From assembly GCF_001457835.1 (NCBI RefSeq), contig NZ_LN898230.1, positions 79,600 through 143,599 of the forward strand: 64,000 nt of DNA, given 5' to 3'. The DNA is from Fenollaria timonensis (GTDB lineage: Bacteria; Bacillota; Clostridia; Tissierellales; Peptoniphilaceae). Shown piece after piece: positions 9,038-17,624 of this stretch (positions within the stretch are counted from its first letter, which is position 1; the number at the start of each line of letters is the position of its first letter). The notes under the pieces were generated by a model, which made no database searches, had not been told where the DNA came from, and worked only from the letters and a program-made list of their open reading frames with translations. A program made the translations under genes and the position numbers.

Positions 9038-11107
9038 ATGAAGGCTTACGATGCAAGCAAAATCAGAAACGTATCCCTTTTGGGACACAGTAGTAGTGGT
9101 AAAACTATGCTAGTTGAATCACTTTTATACGCAACAGGAGCTATCTCTAGGATGGGTAAGGTTGAAGACGGAAATACTGTTGGAGACTTTTCCAAAGAAG
9201 AGATACAAAGAAAGGTTTCTATCAATACAAAGGTTATTCCTGTAGAATATAATGATGTTAAATACAATTTCCTTGATACACCTGGTTACTTCGACTTCAT
9301 TGGTGAGATGTACGGTGCAAAGAGAGCGTCAGAAGGCTCTATACTAGTTATTGACGCGCAAGCAGGCGTTGAAGTAGGAACTGAAAAAGCGTGGAAGAAC
9401 TTAAATAAATATCATACACCAAGATTTATCTTCTTAAATAAGATGGATAAGGAAAATGTTAAATTCGACGAAGTTTTGGAAGATATAAAAACAAAACTTG
9501 GTGGCCATATAGTTCCACTAGTTATGCCTATTGGCGAAGCTGAAGGCTTTAAGGGCATGGTTGACTTAATTCAAGACAAGGCTTACAGCTATGAAGGTAG
9601 AAAGAGAACTGAAATTCCTGTTCCAGCTGAGTGGGATGGCTATATTGAAAAGCTTAGAGGCGAGTTAAACGAAGTCGTTGCTGAAACATCTGAAGAGCTT
9701 ATGGAAAAGTATTTTGCAGGTGAAGCCTTTACTGATGCTGAATTTAAAGAAGGTATAAAGCAAGCTGTTAGAAATGGTGAATTAACTATACTTATGGTAG
9801 GTAGTGTTGAAAAAGGCATAGGCATGGAACTACTTCTTCATAAGATTCAAAGATATTTCCCTGCTCCAAACGAAGTAGGCGCATACACTGGCACATGGGA
9901 AGATAAAGAAGAATTGAGAAAAGTTGATGAAAACGAACCATTCTCGGCAGTTGTTTTCAAGACTATAGTTGACCCATTCGTAGGAAAGTTATCATTATTC
10001 AAAGTTATATCTGGTAAGATTACTAAATCTACACCATTATACAATGCAAGTCAAGAAGTAGATGAAAAGCTTGGCGGATTATTCTACTTAAGAGGTAAGA
10101 CTCAAATCGATACTGATAGCATCATCGCAGGAGATATCGGTGCTACGAGTAAACTTGAACACGCTCGCACTGGCGATACGCTATGCGACAAGGCTCATCC
10201 TGTTATATTCGAGAGAATTAGGTATCCAAAGCCAACTCTATATATGTCGGTAAGACCTGTAAAGCAAGGCGAAGACGAAAAGATAGGCGTTGCGCTTAAC
10301 AAGATGACTGCGGAAGACCCAACATTTGAAGTAATTAGAAATCATGAGACTAAGGAACTTTTAATTGGTGGTCAAGGTAACATGCAATTAACAGTTATTA
10401 AAGATAAATTGAAAAACACATTTGGCGTTGAGATTGAACTTGACGATCCAAAGATTGCTTACAGAGAAACTATTAGACAAAAGGCTGAAGTTCAAGGTAA
10501 GCACAAAAAACAATCAGGCGGCGCTGGTCAATACGGTGACGTTTGGGTAAGATTTGAACCACATGATGGAGATGACTTTGTATTTGCTGAAGAAGTATTT
10601 GGTGGAGCAGTTCCAAAGAACTTCTTCCCAGCAGTTGAAAAAGGTCTTAGAGAATCGCTTGAACATGGCGTTTTAGCAGGATACCCAGTAGTACATGTTA
10701 AGGCAACATTATACGATGGATCATACCACGACGTTGACTCAAACGAAATGGCGTTCAAGATCGCTGCACAATTGGCATTTAAGAAGGGTATGCAAGAAGC
10801 AAAACCAATCCTTCTTGAACCTATAGTTAAGGCAGAAATAAAAGTACCAGAAAGCTACTTAGGCGACGTTATGGGCGATATGAACAAACGTAGAGGCAGA
10901 ATTTTAGGTATAGACTCACAAGATGACGGTACACAAGTAATCACAGCAGAAGTACCTCATTCAGAAATGTTTAGATACGCAATAGACCTAAGAGCGATGA
11001 CACAAGCAAGAGGCTCCTTCCAAATGGACTTTGTAAGATACGAAGAAGTACCACAAGACCAAGCAAATAAGATTATAGAAGCAGCCAACGCAGAAAAAAA
11101 TAAATAA
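9038..11107 (+). CDS. Elongation factor G-like GTPase (EF-G paralogue)
   Basis: This 689-residue translational GTPase has the full EF-G domain order: G domain, II, III, IV, V. The P-loop is GHSSSGKT (16-23) in place of the canonical (A/G)H(I/V)DAGKT. Switch I carries QRKVSINT instead of the RGITI motif. DTPGY (80-84) and NKMD (134-137) are intact. Domain IV keeps DGSYHDVDS, with the histidine that sits at the decoding site in EF-G. The altered P-loop and switch I are hallmarks of the EF-G-like paralogues found beside the true fusA in many Firmicutes and actinobacteria. Their role in translation, recycling or stress is not settled. It is not linked to rpsL/rpsG/tuf, which also argues against it being the housekeeping EF-G. 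It is monocistronic, with its own promoter. Confidence 0.85.
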   Translation: MKAYDASKIRNVSLLGHSSSGKTMLVESLLYATGAISRMGKVEDGNTVGDFSKEEIQRKVSINTKVIPVEYNDVKYNFLDTPGYFDFIGEMYGAKRASEGSILVIDAQAGVEVGTEKAWKNLNKYHTPRFIFLNKMDKENVKFDEVLEDIKTKLGGHIVPLVMPIGEAEGFKGMVDLIQDKAYSYEGRKRTEIPVPAEWDGYIEKLRGELNEVVAETSEELMEKYFAGEAFTDAEFKEGIKQAVRNGELTILMVGSVEKGIGMELLLHKIQRYFPAPNEVGAYTGTWEDKEELRKVDENEPFSAVVFKTIVDPFVGKLSLFKVISGKITKSTPLYNASQEVDEKLGGLFYLRGKTQIDTDSIIAGDIGATSKLEHARTGDTLCDKAHPVIFERIRYPKPTLYMSVRPVKQGEDEKIGVALNKMTAEDPTFEVIRNHETKELLIGGQGNMQLTVIKDKLKNTFGVEIELDDPKIAYRETIRQKAEVQGKHKKQSGGAGQYGDVWVRFEPHDGDDFVFAEEVFGGAVPKNFFPAVEKGLRESLEHGVLAGYPVVHVKATLYDGSYHDVDSNEMAFKIAAQLAFKKGMQEAKPILLEPIVKAEIKVPESYLGDVMGDMNKRRGRILGIDSQDDGTQVITAEVPHSEMFRYAIDLRAMTQARGSFQMDFVRYEEVPQDQANKIIEAANAEKNK

Positions 11108-11110
11108 ATA

Positions 11111-11166
11111 AAATATTTTTCAAGCACGGAGTGCCAAGGTTCACGTCCGTAAGGACGGGGTTCTTC
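11111..11166 (+). repeat. Hairpin repeat unit A
   Basis: This unit holds stem 1 (GCAC-gga-GTGC), the linker CAAGGTTC, stem 2 (GTCC-gtaa-GGAC) and the tail GGGGTTCTT. It is the short form of a repeat family seen five times in this window. The 29-bp stretch at 11113-11141 recurs with one mismatch at 11384-11412. Confidence 0.75.
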
Positions 11167-11173
11167 TATTTTA

Positions 11174-11336
11174 CATCGCTGAAAGCGATGGCAAGGTTCA
11201 CGGGACCCACCCGAAGCTAAAAAAAGCATACACAAATAATATATTTTTCATATTTATTCTCTTAAGGAGGACGTACTGATTAAGGTACGTCTTTCTTATT
11301 GTGTATGCTTTAGCTTCGTTGGTGGGTGTGGTTCTT
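11174..11336 (+). repeat. Hairpin repeat unit B with a 27-bp inserted stem
   Basis: This unit holds stem 1 (ATCGCT-gaa-AGCGAT), the linker GCAAGGTTC (11191-11199), a long composite stem and the tail GGTTCTT. In the long stem, ACCCACC pairs with GGTGGGT, CGAAGCTAAA with TTTAGCTTCG, and GCATACACAA (11226-11235) with TTGTGTATGC (11299-11308). Only a 4-nt and a 2-nt bulge interrupt it. The 63-nt apical loop contains a further hairpin, GACGTAC/GTACGTC (11270-11291). No open reading frame fits it. The architecture resembles an untranslated structured RNA or a palindromic mobile repeat. Confidence 0.7.
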
Positions 11337-11348
11337 TTTCTCTTAGAG

Positions 11349-11380
11349 AAACACACAGGTTTTACTTGTGTGTTTTTCTT
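11349..11380 (+). terminator. Terminator following repeat unit B
   Basis: AAACACACA pairs with TGTGTGTTT and is followed by TTCTTT. It is preceded by the motif CTCTTAGAGAAACACA, which recurs before the next terminator at 11546. Confidence 0.75.
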
Positions 11381-11383
11381 TAT

Positions 11384-11415
11384 ATATTTTTCAAGCACGA
11401 AGTGCCAAGGTTTAT
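11384..11415 (+). repeat. Hairpin repeat unit C (truncated)
   Basis: GCAC-gaa-GTGC plus CAAGGTT repeats the first half of unit A, differing from it by a single base in the 3-nt loop. The second stem is absent and the sequence turns AT-rich. Confidence 0.65.
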
Positions 11416-11461
11416 TTAATTTGTGATAAGTTAAAAAAAGTATATAAGGTTTTCATATTTT

Positions 11462-11535
11462 AAATTGCCGAAGGCAATTGCAAGGTTCCGGGGCACCCAT
11501 CCAACGCGAAGCGTTGAGATAGGGTCGGGTTCTTA
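11462..11535 (+). repeat. Hairpin repeat unit D
   Basis: AAATTGCC-gaa-GGCAATT, the linker GCAAGGTTC (11480-11488), and a compound stem in which ACCC-ATC pairs with GAT-a-GGGT around the inner hairpin AACGC-gaa-GCGTT. The tail is CGGGTTCTT. Stem sequences differ from units A and B while pairing and linker are preserved, the pattern expected of a conserved RNA structure. Confidence 0.7.
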
Positions 11536-11545
11536 TTCTCTTAGA

Positions 11546-11585
11546 GAAACACATGGGTTAATTCTCATGTGTTTTTCTTTTTTTT
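11546..11585 (+). terminator. Terminator following repeat unit D
   Basis: AAACACATG pairs with CATGTGTTT and is followed by TTCTTTTTTTT. Like the terminator after unit B it is introduced by CTCTTAGAGAAACACA. Confidence 0.8.
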
Positions 11586-11649
11586 ATACAAGTCCATTCA
11601 CAATTCTAATAGAAATTTATACAAAATAGTTACACTTAATGTTTATCCA

Positions 11650-16244: not shown

Positions 16245-17574
16245 CGAGTGCGGCTACGAATCCAGCGGCTACTTAGGCAAGTGCCCCGAGTGTGGTTCTT
16301 GGGGCAGCCTTAAGGAAGTTTTGGAGGATACAAAAAAAGCAGTAAAAAAAGAAAAAATCGTAAGAAGCAAGGCAATGCAGCTAAAGACTGTCACTTCGTC
16401 AAACTCGGATAGGCTTAAGACGAGCTTCGAAGAGTTTAACAGAGTTATGGGCGAGGGCATAGTTAAGGACTCGGTTACAATACTTACAGCTAAGCCGGGC
16501 GCCGGCAAAAGTACACTTCTTTTGCAAATAGCGAACGACGCGTGCAAAAAAGGCCTTAAGGTCTTATACGCTTCAGGCGAAGAGTCCGAGAGCCAAATCA
16601 AGCAAAGGGCAGATAGGATACTTGATACTATCGAGGATGATCTATACATCATAAGCGATATGAGCCTTGACAATATTAAGGAAGAAGTCCTTAGGGTCGA
16701 CGCGGACATGGTAGTCGTTGACTCGATACAAACTGTTGAGCTTGATGAGTACAAGCCATCAAGACCTGCCTCACCAACACAAACAGTTGAGTGTGCTTAT
16801 GAATTAGTTAATCTTGCAAAAAATATACAAAGGCCTCGTATAGTTTTTATCGTGGGTCAAATGACTAAAGATGATGAATTAAGAGGCGTTAGAACACTAG
16901 AGCACCTTGTAGATACCGTTCTAGTTATGGATACTTATCAAAACGATTCCTTAAGAACCATTGTCGCGAGCAAAAATCGTTATGGAGCTACAGGCGAGAT
17001 GGGCTTTATGAATATGCAAGAGAGGGGCCTTGTATCGATCGACAATCCGAGCGAGTACTTTGTTTCGTCAAGGAAGGAAAACAATTTCCCTGGCAGTGCC
17101 ATAACTGTAAATATGGAAGGGACTAGACCAGTTATACTTGAGGTCGAAGCCCTTGTAACGAAGTCATATACACCATATCCATCGCGTATAAGCGAGAATA
17201 TGTCAAGAGAAAAACTAAATACACTACTTTCAATCATGGAAAAGAGATTAAACGTTGATATGTTTGATAAAAACGTCGTAATCAAGTCCATGGGAGGACT
17301 CAAGCTTAAGGAAGACGCATCGAATCTTGCTTTAATCGCGGCAATATATTCACAGCTAGTGAATAAGGTCTTAAGCTCAGACACAGTCTATATTGCTGAC
17401 ATATCCTTAACGGGCGAACTTAAAAAAGTGCCTCAGCTTGAGAGAAGACTTAAAGAAGCCGAACGCATGGGCTATAAAAAAGCAATAATTAGTAGCGAAG
17501 CAAAACTATCGACAAAGTTCACAAAATTAGAGCTAATTAAATGCTCTTCCTTAATAGATGCACTTAAAGAATAA
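16213..17574 (+). CDS. radA: RadA/Sms DNA repair ATPase
   Basis: This branch-migration helicase acts in recombinational repair. The start at 16213 ([10 protein letters not shown]) follows AAGGAATTGG and overlaps clpC by 32 bp. An in-frame ATG at 16153 would add 20 residues with no family match. A C4 zinc finger (Cys10, 13, 24, 27) precedes a RecA-like core with Walker A AKPGAGKS (about 93-100). The RadA signature KNRFG appears as KNRYG (about 254). The C-terminal Lon-protease-like domain runs from about 285 to 453. radA last in the ctsR-clpC operon is the usual Firmicute arrangement. The stop codon lies inside a hairpin repeat of the family seen at 11111-11535. Confidence 0.95.
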   Translation: MAKKKSLYKCSECGYESSGYLGKCPECGSWGSLKEVLEDTKKAVKKEKIVRSKAMQLKTVTSSNSDRLKTSFEEFNRVMGEGIVKDSVTILTAKPGAGKSTLLLQIANDACKKGLKVLYASGEESESQIKQRADRILDTIEDDLYIISDMSLDNIKEEVLRVDADMVVVDSIQTVELDEYKPSRPASPTQTVECAYELVNLAKNIQRPRIVFIVGQMTKDDELRGVRTLEHLVDTVLVMDTYQNDSLRTIVASKNRYGATGEMGFMNMQERGLVSIDNPSEYFVSSRKENNFPGSAITVNMEGTRPVILEVEALVTKSYTPYPSRISENMSREKLNTLLSIMEKRLNVDMFDKNVVIKSMGGLKLKEDASNLALIAAIYSQLVNKVLSSDTVYIADISLTGELKKVPQLERRLKEAERMGYKKAIISSEAKLSTKFTKLELIKCSSLIDALKE

Positions 17575-17624
17575 GAACCCCGTCCTTGCGGACGTGAACC
17601 TTGCAATTGCCTTCGGCAATTTAA
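17571..17624 (-). repeat. Hairpin repeat unit E (inverted)
   Basis: Read on the minus strand it is AAATTGCC-gaa-GGCAATT, GCAAGGTTC, GTCC-gcaa-GGAC and GGGGTTCTT. The first stem matches unit D and the second matches unit A. It overlaps the radA stop codon, so transcription of radA traverses it in antisense. With AAGAAAAAAAATC after it, it may also act as a weak terminator. Confidence 0.75.

Follow-up and report, generated by a model that had tools for sequence, protein, structure and literature searches.

Behind the EF-G gene of Fenollaria lies a series of hairpins whose stems differ in sequence while keeping their pairing, and a further copy is found in inverted orientation beside radA. The question that this locus raises is whether the hairpins belong to a small RNA family or to a palindromic mobile repeat, the two readings which the initial annotation had offered. 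It was addressed in the window (G000:C8:79600-143599; the whole stretch of 64,000 nucleotides that was analyzed, from a genome of 1.74 Mb in 8 contigs) and by comparison across genomes.

Hairpin Units Behind the EF-G Gene and Beside radA

The EF-G gene is upstream of units A to D, all of which read on the forward strand. Unit A (11124-11165) starts with a first hairpin, hp1 (GCAC-GGA-GTGC; 11124-11134), followed by C, AAGGTTC, a second hairpin, hp2 (CGTCC-GTAA-GGACG), and GGTTCTT, the core occupying 11136-11165. Unit B (11174-11336) has its hp1 at 11174-11190, AAGGTTC at 11193 and a long hp2 with arms at 11193-11218 and 11312-11336; between these arms sits a nested module (11223-11311, forward strand) bounded by a 13-bp perfect inverted repeat (11223-11235/11299-11311), inside which there is a CTCTTA...TCTT hairpin (11259-11297). 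Unit C (11395-11451, the right end being approximate) is a decayed copy: hp1 (GCAC-GAA-GTGC; 11395-11405) is followed by the linker CAAGGTTT, with neither hp2 nor GGTTCTT. Unit D (11462-11534) consists of hp1 (AAATTGCC-GAA-GGCAATT; 11462-11479), AAGGTTC, a long hp2 with an inner CGC-GAA-GCG hairpin, and GGTTCTT. On the reverse strand, unit E (17573-17622) lies at the end of radA, its tail overlapping the radA stop codon, and is made up of hp1 (AAATTGCC-GAA-GGCAATT; 17605-17622), GC, AAGGTTC, hp2 (CGTCC-GCAA-GGACG) and GGTTCTT (core 17573-17602). The layout hp1-CAAGGTTC-hp2-GGTTCTT, initially ascribed to all five units, is found in A, B, D and the inverted E, but not in C, where the linker is also mutated. 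The same terminator module was said to end two units, and it does: a terminator-like hairpin with a T-tract follows both unit B (11340-11380, forward strand, beginning CTCTTAGAGAAACACA) and unit D (11538-11579, forward strand). The nested hairpin reported for unit B is enclosed as described, but the 27-bp stem around it is interrupted by bulges.

The arms of hp1 vary with their pairing kept (GCAC/GTGC, CATCGCT/AGCGATG, AAATTGCC/GGCAATT). The linker CAAGGTTC occurs 6 times in the window against 1.4 expected, a count reached in 0 of 100 shuffles; two of these copies (25456 and 48433) are outside any unit, and neither has a match to the covariance model R1 described below. A coding explanation for 11111-11585 was rejected, the 92-residue reverse open reading frame at 10957-11235 being a mechanical listing that overlaps the EF-G gene. 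Folding of single units with their flanks gave z-scores from -1.2 to -2.7 for A, B, C and E, and -6.2 for D including its terminator; apart from D with its terminator, single units thus fold modestly, and the decision falls to comparison.

Copies in Fenollaria and its Family

A pattern in which no pairing was asked, CAAGGTTCN{6,36}GGTTCTT, matched 5, 5 and 10 times in three Fenollaria genomes (G000, G001 and G002), and from 0 to 2 times each in 58 other genomes of the same family or order, where reversed controls likewise gave 0 to 2. By eye, the inner part is paired in all 20 Fenollaria matches, and 15 of these were used to build R1. In the window, R1 scores 74.6 bits for unit A (11115-11170) and 60.4 bits for unit E, both of which are training sequences, 25.7 bits for unit D and, weakly, 21.8 bits for unit C (11386-11421); it gives no match to unit B at E ≤ 0.01. 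With 150 first-look candidates per genome scored and the training units included, at least 21, 49 and 46 places were found at E ≤ 1 in G000, G001 and G002. Stricter filters (E ≤ 0.01), applied to a draw of 61 genomes of the family, gave 18, 44 and 40 places in the Fenollaria genomes, 29 in G770, one in G021 and none in the 56 further genomes of the draw. G770 and G021 belong to one genus, different from Fenollaria, so that the hosts in this Bacillota family are two genera. A model built from the units and scanned across genomes, the check put forward at the outset, thus finds many further copies in the genome and its relatives; the lack of such copies, which was to count toward refutation, did not occur.

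Among the listed hits, Fenollaria units are clustered in one part of the chromosome (G002:C1, the single contig of that genome, 231-775 kb, with one pair at 1037 kb; G000:C7 373-588 kb); those of G770, unlike them, are spread along the contig. A presence throughout the Bacillota was rejected: the pattern AAGGTTCTN{4,24}AGGTTCTT matches 23 of 398 genomes of the phylum, with more than two matches in the window's own genome only, and the matches in other Bacillota genomes are taken as chance because their inner parts look unpaired by eye.

Distribution in Patescibacteria and Other Bacteria

A contig scan with AAGGTTCWCGN{6,14}CGRGGTTCTT, in which the CG...CG ends are already required, returned at least 80 stretches. 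Beyond Fenollaria, the listed matches include many Patescibacteria (Nealsonbacteria, Woesebacteria, Blackburnbacteria, Parcubacteria and WWE3) and, by eye, the layout is also seen in a few Clostridia/Bacillota MAGs; several of the listed matches resemble chance occurrences in coding sequence. The recurrent core in Patescibacteria and the few Clostridia MAGs is hp1-C-AAGGTTC-hp2-GGTTCTT. In 17 genomes chosen from the scan loci, R1 (E ≤ 0.01) matches from 1 to 15 places each. Within the phylum of G061, AAGGTTCTN{4,24}AGGTTCTT is found in 20 of 286 genomes, some of the matches being single and unpaired, with counts of 32 in G061, 19 in G098, 11 in G074 and 6 each in G265 and G334; the reversed control never exceeded two matches per genome across the 286. 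The distribution of the units is patchy, taking in a few anaerobic bacteria and some of the tiny, uncultured Patescibacteria. Carriage by phages was considered and rejected; a scan of viral contigs gave three pattern matches, one of which (L261) has a paired inner part and no evident hp1.

Conserved Pairing in Diverging Arms

Covariation was assessed in an alignment of 15 units (A2), picked by pattern without a pairing requirement, in which some hp1 rows are misaligned. In A2, 93.7% of cells are paired against 86.6% in shuffles, both sides have changed in 13 cells against 3.3 in shuffles, and the covariation score of 0.194 lies above the shuffled value (0.095 ± 0.017; 0 of 500 shuffles as high) and above slid pairings (0.003-0.080). 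Two other measures are unexceptional, namely the double-change pairs (4; 69 of 500 shuffles as high) and the further pair types (9; 365 of 500).

When each anchor may carry one mismatch, inner stems of 4 bp or more are seen in Fenollaria at 59 of 193 places (47 distinct; 3.8% in shuffles) and elsewhere at 61 of 231 (41 distinct; 2.8% in shuffles). Both figures are biased upward, since part of the loci had been supplied by R1 or by a pattern that requires CG...CG ends, and a few of the places are chance. The two anchors have changed together in three copies (AAGGTTT with AGTTCTT). Of the 44 Fenollaria units, 16 have a perfect hp1, as do 41 of the 76 from elsewhere, while shuffles give 17%; hp1 is thus less secure than hp2.

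The loops of hp2 are tetraloops in 25 of 35 distinct Fenollaria sequences, and the eight of these that are GNRA would suit an RNA. GNA triloops are known for unusual stability in DNA, and among the distinct hp2 sequences from outside Fenollaria 15 of 30 triloops are GNA, 11 of them closed by C-G (1 in 16 is expected by chance; p ~ 5e-11, the sequences not being independent). Around hp2, AAGG stands on one side and TTCTT on the other, with GTT facing GTT in wobble or mismatch pairs. Folded as RNA, units A, D and E include the AAGG/TTCTT pairing; folding of the window units and of the L145 units as DNA keeps the hairpins and does not predict that pairing. The structure does not settle whether DNA or RNA is the recognized form, and the placement data favor DNA mobility.

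Dispersed Copies, Unit-Free Loci and Units Within Genes

Sixteen G770 copies were aligned on their cores, out of the 29 matched by R1 (20 loci were read; two tandem copies, one copy with a short hp2 and the G021 copy were left out). Pairwise identity is 0.56-1.0 from -19 to +3 and falls to ~0.2-0.5 beyond, which delimits an element of ~70 bases in unrelated flanks; the leftmost T-tract may be part of the target. Within Fenollaria, another dispersed repeat is found with a unit at three loci (L033, L027 and L031) and without one at seven (L030, L106, L125 and L190 in one alignment; L138, L187 and L139 in another), the difference being a single block of 43-44 bases; these alignments have no row for L089 in one set or for L125 in the other. 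As the loci are paralogous, loss cannot be distinguished from gain, and we infer that the direction was that of insertion. By eye, this second, larger repeat has its own hairpin, with covarying outer arms around a conserved CATCTAG...GAGC-GNA-GCG...ACG.ATATG core.

Units are also found within protein-coding genes. In galU of a Blackburnbacteria MAG (L077), an in-frame unit, which we read as 48 bases long, stands opposite gaps of 15 and 2 residues in the best solved relative, and leuS (L276, G294) holds two in-frame units, 48 bases apart, where 40 query residues face 3 in the relative. A DnaG-like reading frame (L264, G098) stays open across one in-frame unit; solved relatives show the relation to DnaG and stop short of the unit. 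One reading frame of AAGGTTC is shared by galU and leuS, and another is used in the DnaG-like frame.

In three species, arrays occupy the same gaps, behind the EF-G gene and next to radA, with different units in different orders; in the radA gap, the units of G001 and G002 differ from unit E, and the G002 counterpart of unit B carries longer nested content between hp2 arms that are similar. In the G002 array behind the EF-G gene (L183), some units are followed by a third module, TTCTTATTC plus a variable stem plus GAATAAGAA, which would fold as a further long hairpin. Neither excision nor a circle nor a fresh insertion was observed. Of the two readings offered at the outset, the mobile one gains from the sharp-ended dispersed copies, the host repeat with and without a unit, the in-frame units and the patchy copy number, and what speaks for an RNA role is the pairing; we read the units as a palindromic repeat that is mobile, and not as a small RNA.

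Ends of the Unit and Adjacency to Terminators

Tandem copies repeat in the order hp1-C-AAGGTTC-hp2-GGTTCTTA, and by eye the left flank frequently ends in TA or a T-tract; in G770 the ends read TTTTATT...TTCTTATT. A terminator-like hairpin with a T-tract is present within 75 bases upstream at 14 of 26 G770/G021 places, a set that also counts the second unit of tandems and contains some spurious places, a few in all, while controls taken 300 bases off gave 1 and 1, and the opposite strand just downstream has such a hairpin in 3 of the 26. In Fenollaria such hairpins are not enriched upstream (5 of 60 places, against 4 and 10 in the controls and 2 on the opposite strand), and in the set of Patescibacteria and others the enrichment is weak (11 of 97, against 5 and 2 in the controls and 2 on the opposite strand). 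The terminator preference is thus seen in one genome only.

Search for an Enzyme

The Y1 domain PF01797 was found in 10 of 12 unit-bearing against 16 of 40 unit-free Patescibacteria (p = 0.009), the 12 having been chosen from 20 pattern-matched genomes mostly for a paired inner sequence and the 40 being the first of 266 unit-free ones. With further genomes added, the count becomes 21 of 27 unit-bearing genomes (p = 0.002), the added ones being drawn differently and clade structure being uncontrolled. PF01797 is absent from six unit-bearing genomes (G066, G071, G075, G076, G098, which has 19 units, and G181). No unit lies in 57 PF01797 loci (171,221 bases; 39 loci from unit-bearing genomes; out of ~129 Y1 places), and a set of 30 Y1 loci gave one weak R1 match; in Fenollaria, R1 hits fall in the stretches of 3 of 12 Y1 loci (L151, and L157 with L159, which are one place). 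In the 57 PF01797 loci there is no transposase gene flanked by units, the arrangement termed REPtron.

An IS200-like Y1 element of ~0.65 kb is present in Fenollaria in near-identical copies (L150 and L152 in G000; L149, L151 and L154 in G001). As a source of the units it was rejected, since comparison of the near-identical copies showed termini unlike the units. The GTAG/CGTC tag is not at the G770 ends, and GTAG or CGTC occurs anywhere in the 37-base upstream stretch of 5 of 44 Fenollaria units and 5 of 76 other units, the downstream side having been read by eye. No enzyme is tied to the units.

A Probable Mobile Palindromic Element and its Alternatives

We consider it likely that each unit is a copy of a small palindromic DNA element that is mobile and non-autonomous and is composed of hp1, one to three bases, AAGGTTC, hp2 and GGTTCTTA(T). 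The form recognized would be a folded single strand, in which case the arms may drift while pairing is kept and the AAG-GTT-C / G-GTT-CTT frame around hp2 stays fixed. An enzyme acting in trans would then use AAGG, 5' of hp2, as a guide pairing with the CTT of TTCTTA on the cleavage side, 3' of hp2, as in transposition of the IS200/IS605 type, and joining would take place on the 3' side of a site that is T-rich or ends in TA, and in G770 often directly after an intrinsic terminator. Mosaics such as that behind the EF-G gene could then have arisen as units were amplified locally, nested in one another and exchanged among arrays. Counting against this reading are the lack of an enzyme tied to the units, the 57 Y1 loci that hold no unit, the six unit-bearing genomes lacking PF01797, the differing ends of the Fenollaria IS200-like element, the adjacency to terminators that is confined to one genome, the less secure hp1, the GNRA tetraloops of Fenollaria and the DNA folds that do not predict the AAGG/TTCTT pairs.

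The covariation above shuffles and slid controls, the fixed G-U pairs and the GNRA loops would also be expected of a structured small RNA or 3'-UTR RNA family, with stems kept as a regulator, processing site or mRNA stabilizer, and units A to D, lying between the EF-G gene and terminator-like modules, may be transcribed. Against this stand the dispersed, sharp-ended copies in unrelated flanks, the host repeat with and without a unit, the in-frame units in galU and leuS, and the upstream terminator-like hairpin at 14 of the 26 G770/G021 places, where the preceding transcript should have ended. Nor do the units reach the gathering score of any Rfam family: five sub-threshold matches within 11080-11620 (spanning 11204-11587) score 12.9-22.5 bits against gathering scores of 45-440, and a relaxed search of eight loci gave four matches to other features, two below the gathering score. 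The sole match in the window at the gathering score is an abiF RNA (RF03085; 49824-49860), just above threshold at 38.1 bits; elsewhere, a Fluoride riboswitch (L184:3016-3082, in G001) lies upstream of a 397-residue reading frame, close to a unit array. An RNA family is on balance unlikely, and the locus carries a warning that covarying paralogous intergenic hairpins need not imply a small RNA. Group IIC introns enter DNA behind terminator hairpins, and the mostly one-way orientation at the G770/G021 places (14 of 26 upstream against 3 downstream on the opposite strand) would suit a retroelement-like route, with copying via RNA by a reverse transcriptase and entry behind terminators; we think this improbable, as the adjacency to terminators fails in Fenollaria and no Rfam group II intron match was found in 11080-11620 or the eight loci.

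Tandem and clustered palindromes, complementary stem changes and the enrichment of PF01797 in the unit-bearing Patescibacteria tested (p = 0.009) would also fit a genuine REP family mobilized by a RAYT (TnpA_REP), possibly one of a subclass with atypical repeats. The G770 ends without GTAG/CGTC, the empty Y1 loci (57, of which 39 are from unit-bearing genomes) and the unit-bearing genomes lacking PF01797 speak against such a family, to which we give a low probability; the available text of PMC6006769 reports Y1 subclasses without GT[AG]G in their flanking structures, so that a Y1 enzyme is compatible with the missing tag. Very unlikely as the whole story, finally, is an origin with no transposition at all, through local duplication and gene conversion, in which template switching in quasi-palindromes mimics covariation. 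Such switching is known to keep the arms of quasi-palindromes complementary, and neighboring tandem arrays with exchanged modules, together with the 205-base tandem blocks in L033, are in keeping with it, but the 16 dispersed G770 copies, the in-gene units and the presence in distant phyla are left unexplained. Duplication and conversion may account for the growth of arrays and the diversity of arms within the mobile element that we favor. A broader proposal, to which we give an even chance, is that the units belong to a hitherto undescribed superfamily of mobile single-strand elements with two hairpins, which crosses phyla and is marked by the constant AAG-GTT-C / G-GTT-CTT frame and by arms that drift. 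Its enzyme would read shape and frame rather than a GTAG-type tag, and its members could target terminator T-tracts and, in Patescibacteria, be tolerated within essential genes, where they add a peptide in frame.

Comparison with Known Repeat Families

BOX/RUP and attC-like repeats form modular mosaics with folded-strand sites and variable stems; the units likewise lie in modular mosaics with variable stems, but differ in showing no boxA/B/C order and no gene cassettes. Rickettsia palindromic elements insert in frame in protein genes, and the units, palindromic and in frame in coding genes, share with them that in-gene copies keep the frame (galU, leuS). They differ in sequence and in being two-hairpin units of ~48 bases with an AAGGTTC/GGTTCTT core; a CGTC end is mentioned for the Rickettsia elements in the available text of PMC3733652. 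A TIGR-Tas array, which would have box C/D motifs around paired spacers and a Nop-domain gene beside it, appears unlikely, as the fixed core of the units does not resemble the UG...CCA repeats given in the available part of PMC12045711. The ends of IS200/IS605 elements are described, in the available text of PMC8266576, as a hairpin that has a short guide on its 5' side and a cleavage motif on its 3' side, and hp2 has a comparable guide/cleavage-like layout with a T-rich or TA-ending left flank; in contrast, Fenollaria's own IS200-like ends differ, and the Y1 loci on the Patescibacteria side hold no unit in 57 and one weak R1 match in 30. Among the titles listed by our literature search there was no paper on this repeat; subscription papers were mostly outside its coverage, and we do not claim that it is absent from print.

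By behavior the units are REP- or RPE-like. In the available texts of PMC3733652, PMC8266576 and PMC6006769, REP/BIME sequences are short, high-copy palindromes, mostly intergenic, single, tandem or clustered, with complementary stem subfamilies, and are recognized as a folded single strand; the units resemble them as high-copy dispersed palindromes with complementary stem variation. Two of the REP features that were tested are missing from them, namely a GTAG/CGTC tag and a transposase at their flanks: they have two different hairpins with a fixed AAGGTTC/GGTTCTT around hp2 in place of the tag, no transposase gene was found beside them, and their hosts are two Bacillota genera of one family and Patescibacteria. 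REP-like palindromes are known from Proteobacteria and several other phyla (available text of PMC3733652), and the available parts of the three REP texts (PMC3733652, PMC8266576 and PMC6006769) do not mention “Firmicutes.” Fenollaria, one further genus of its family and some minimal genomes of Patescibacteria hold an object similar to REP, with a shared core and without the known tag or an attached transposase. The AAGGTTC/GGTTCTT frame provides a defined search target for finding the enzyme, and the units offer a natural case of drifting palindromes and supply essential proteins with 16-residue inserts in organisms that have little DNA to spare.
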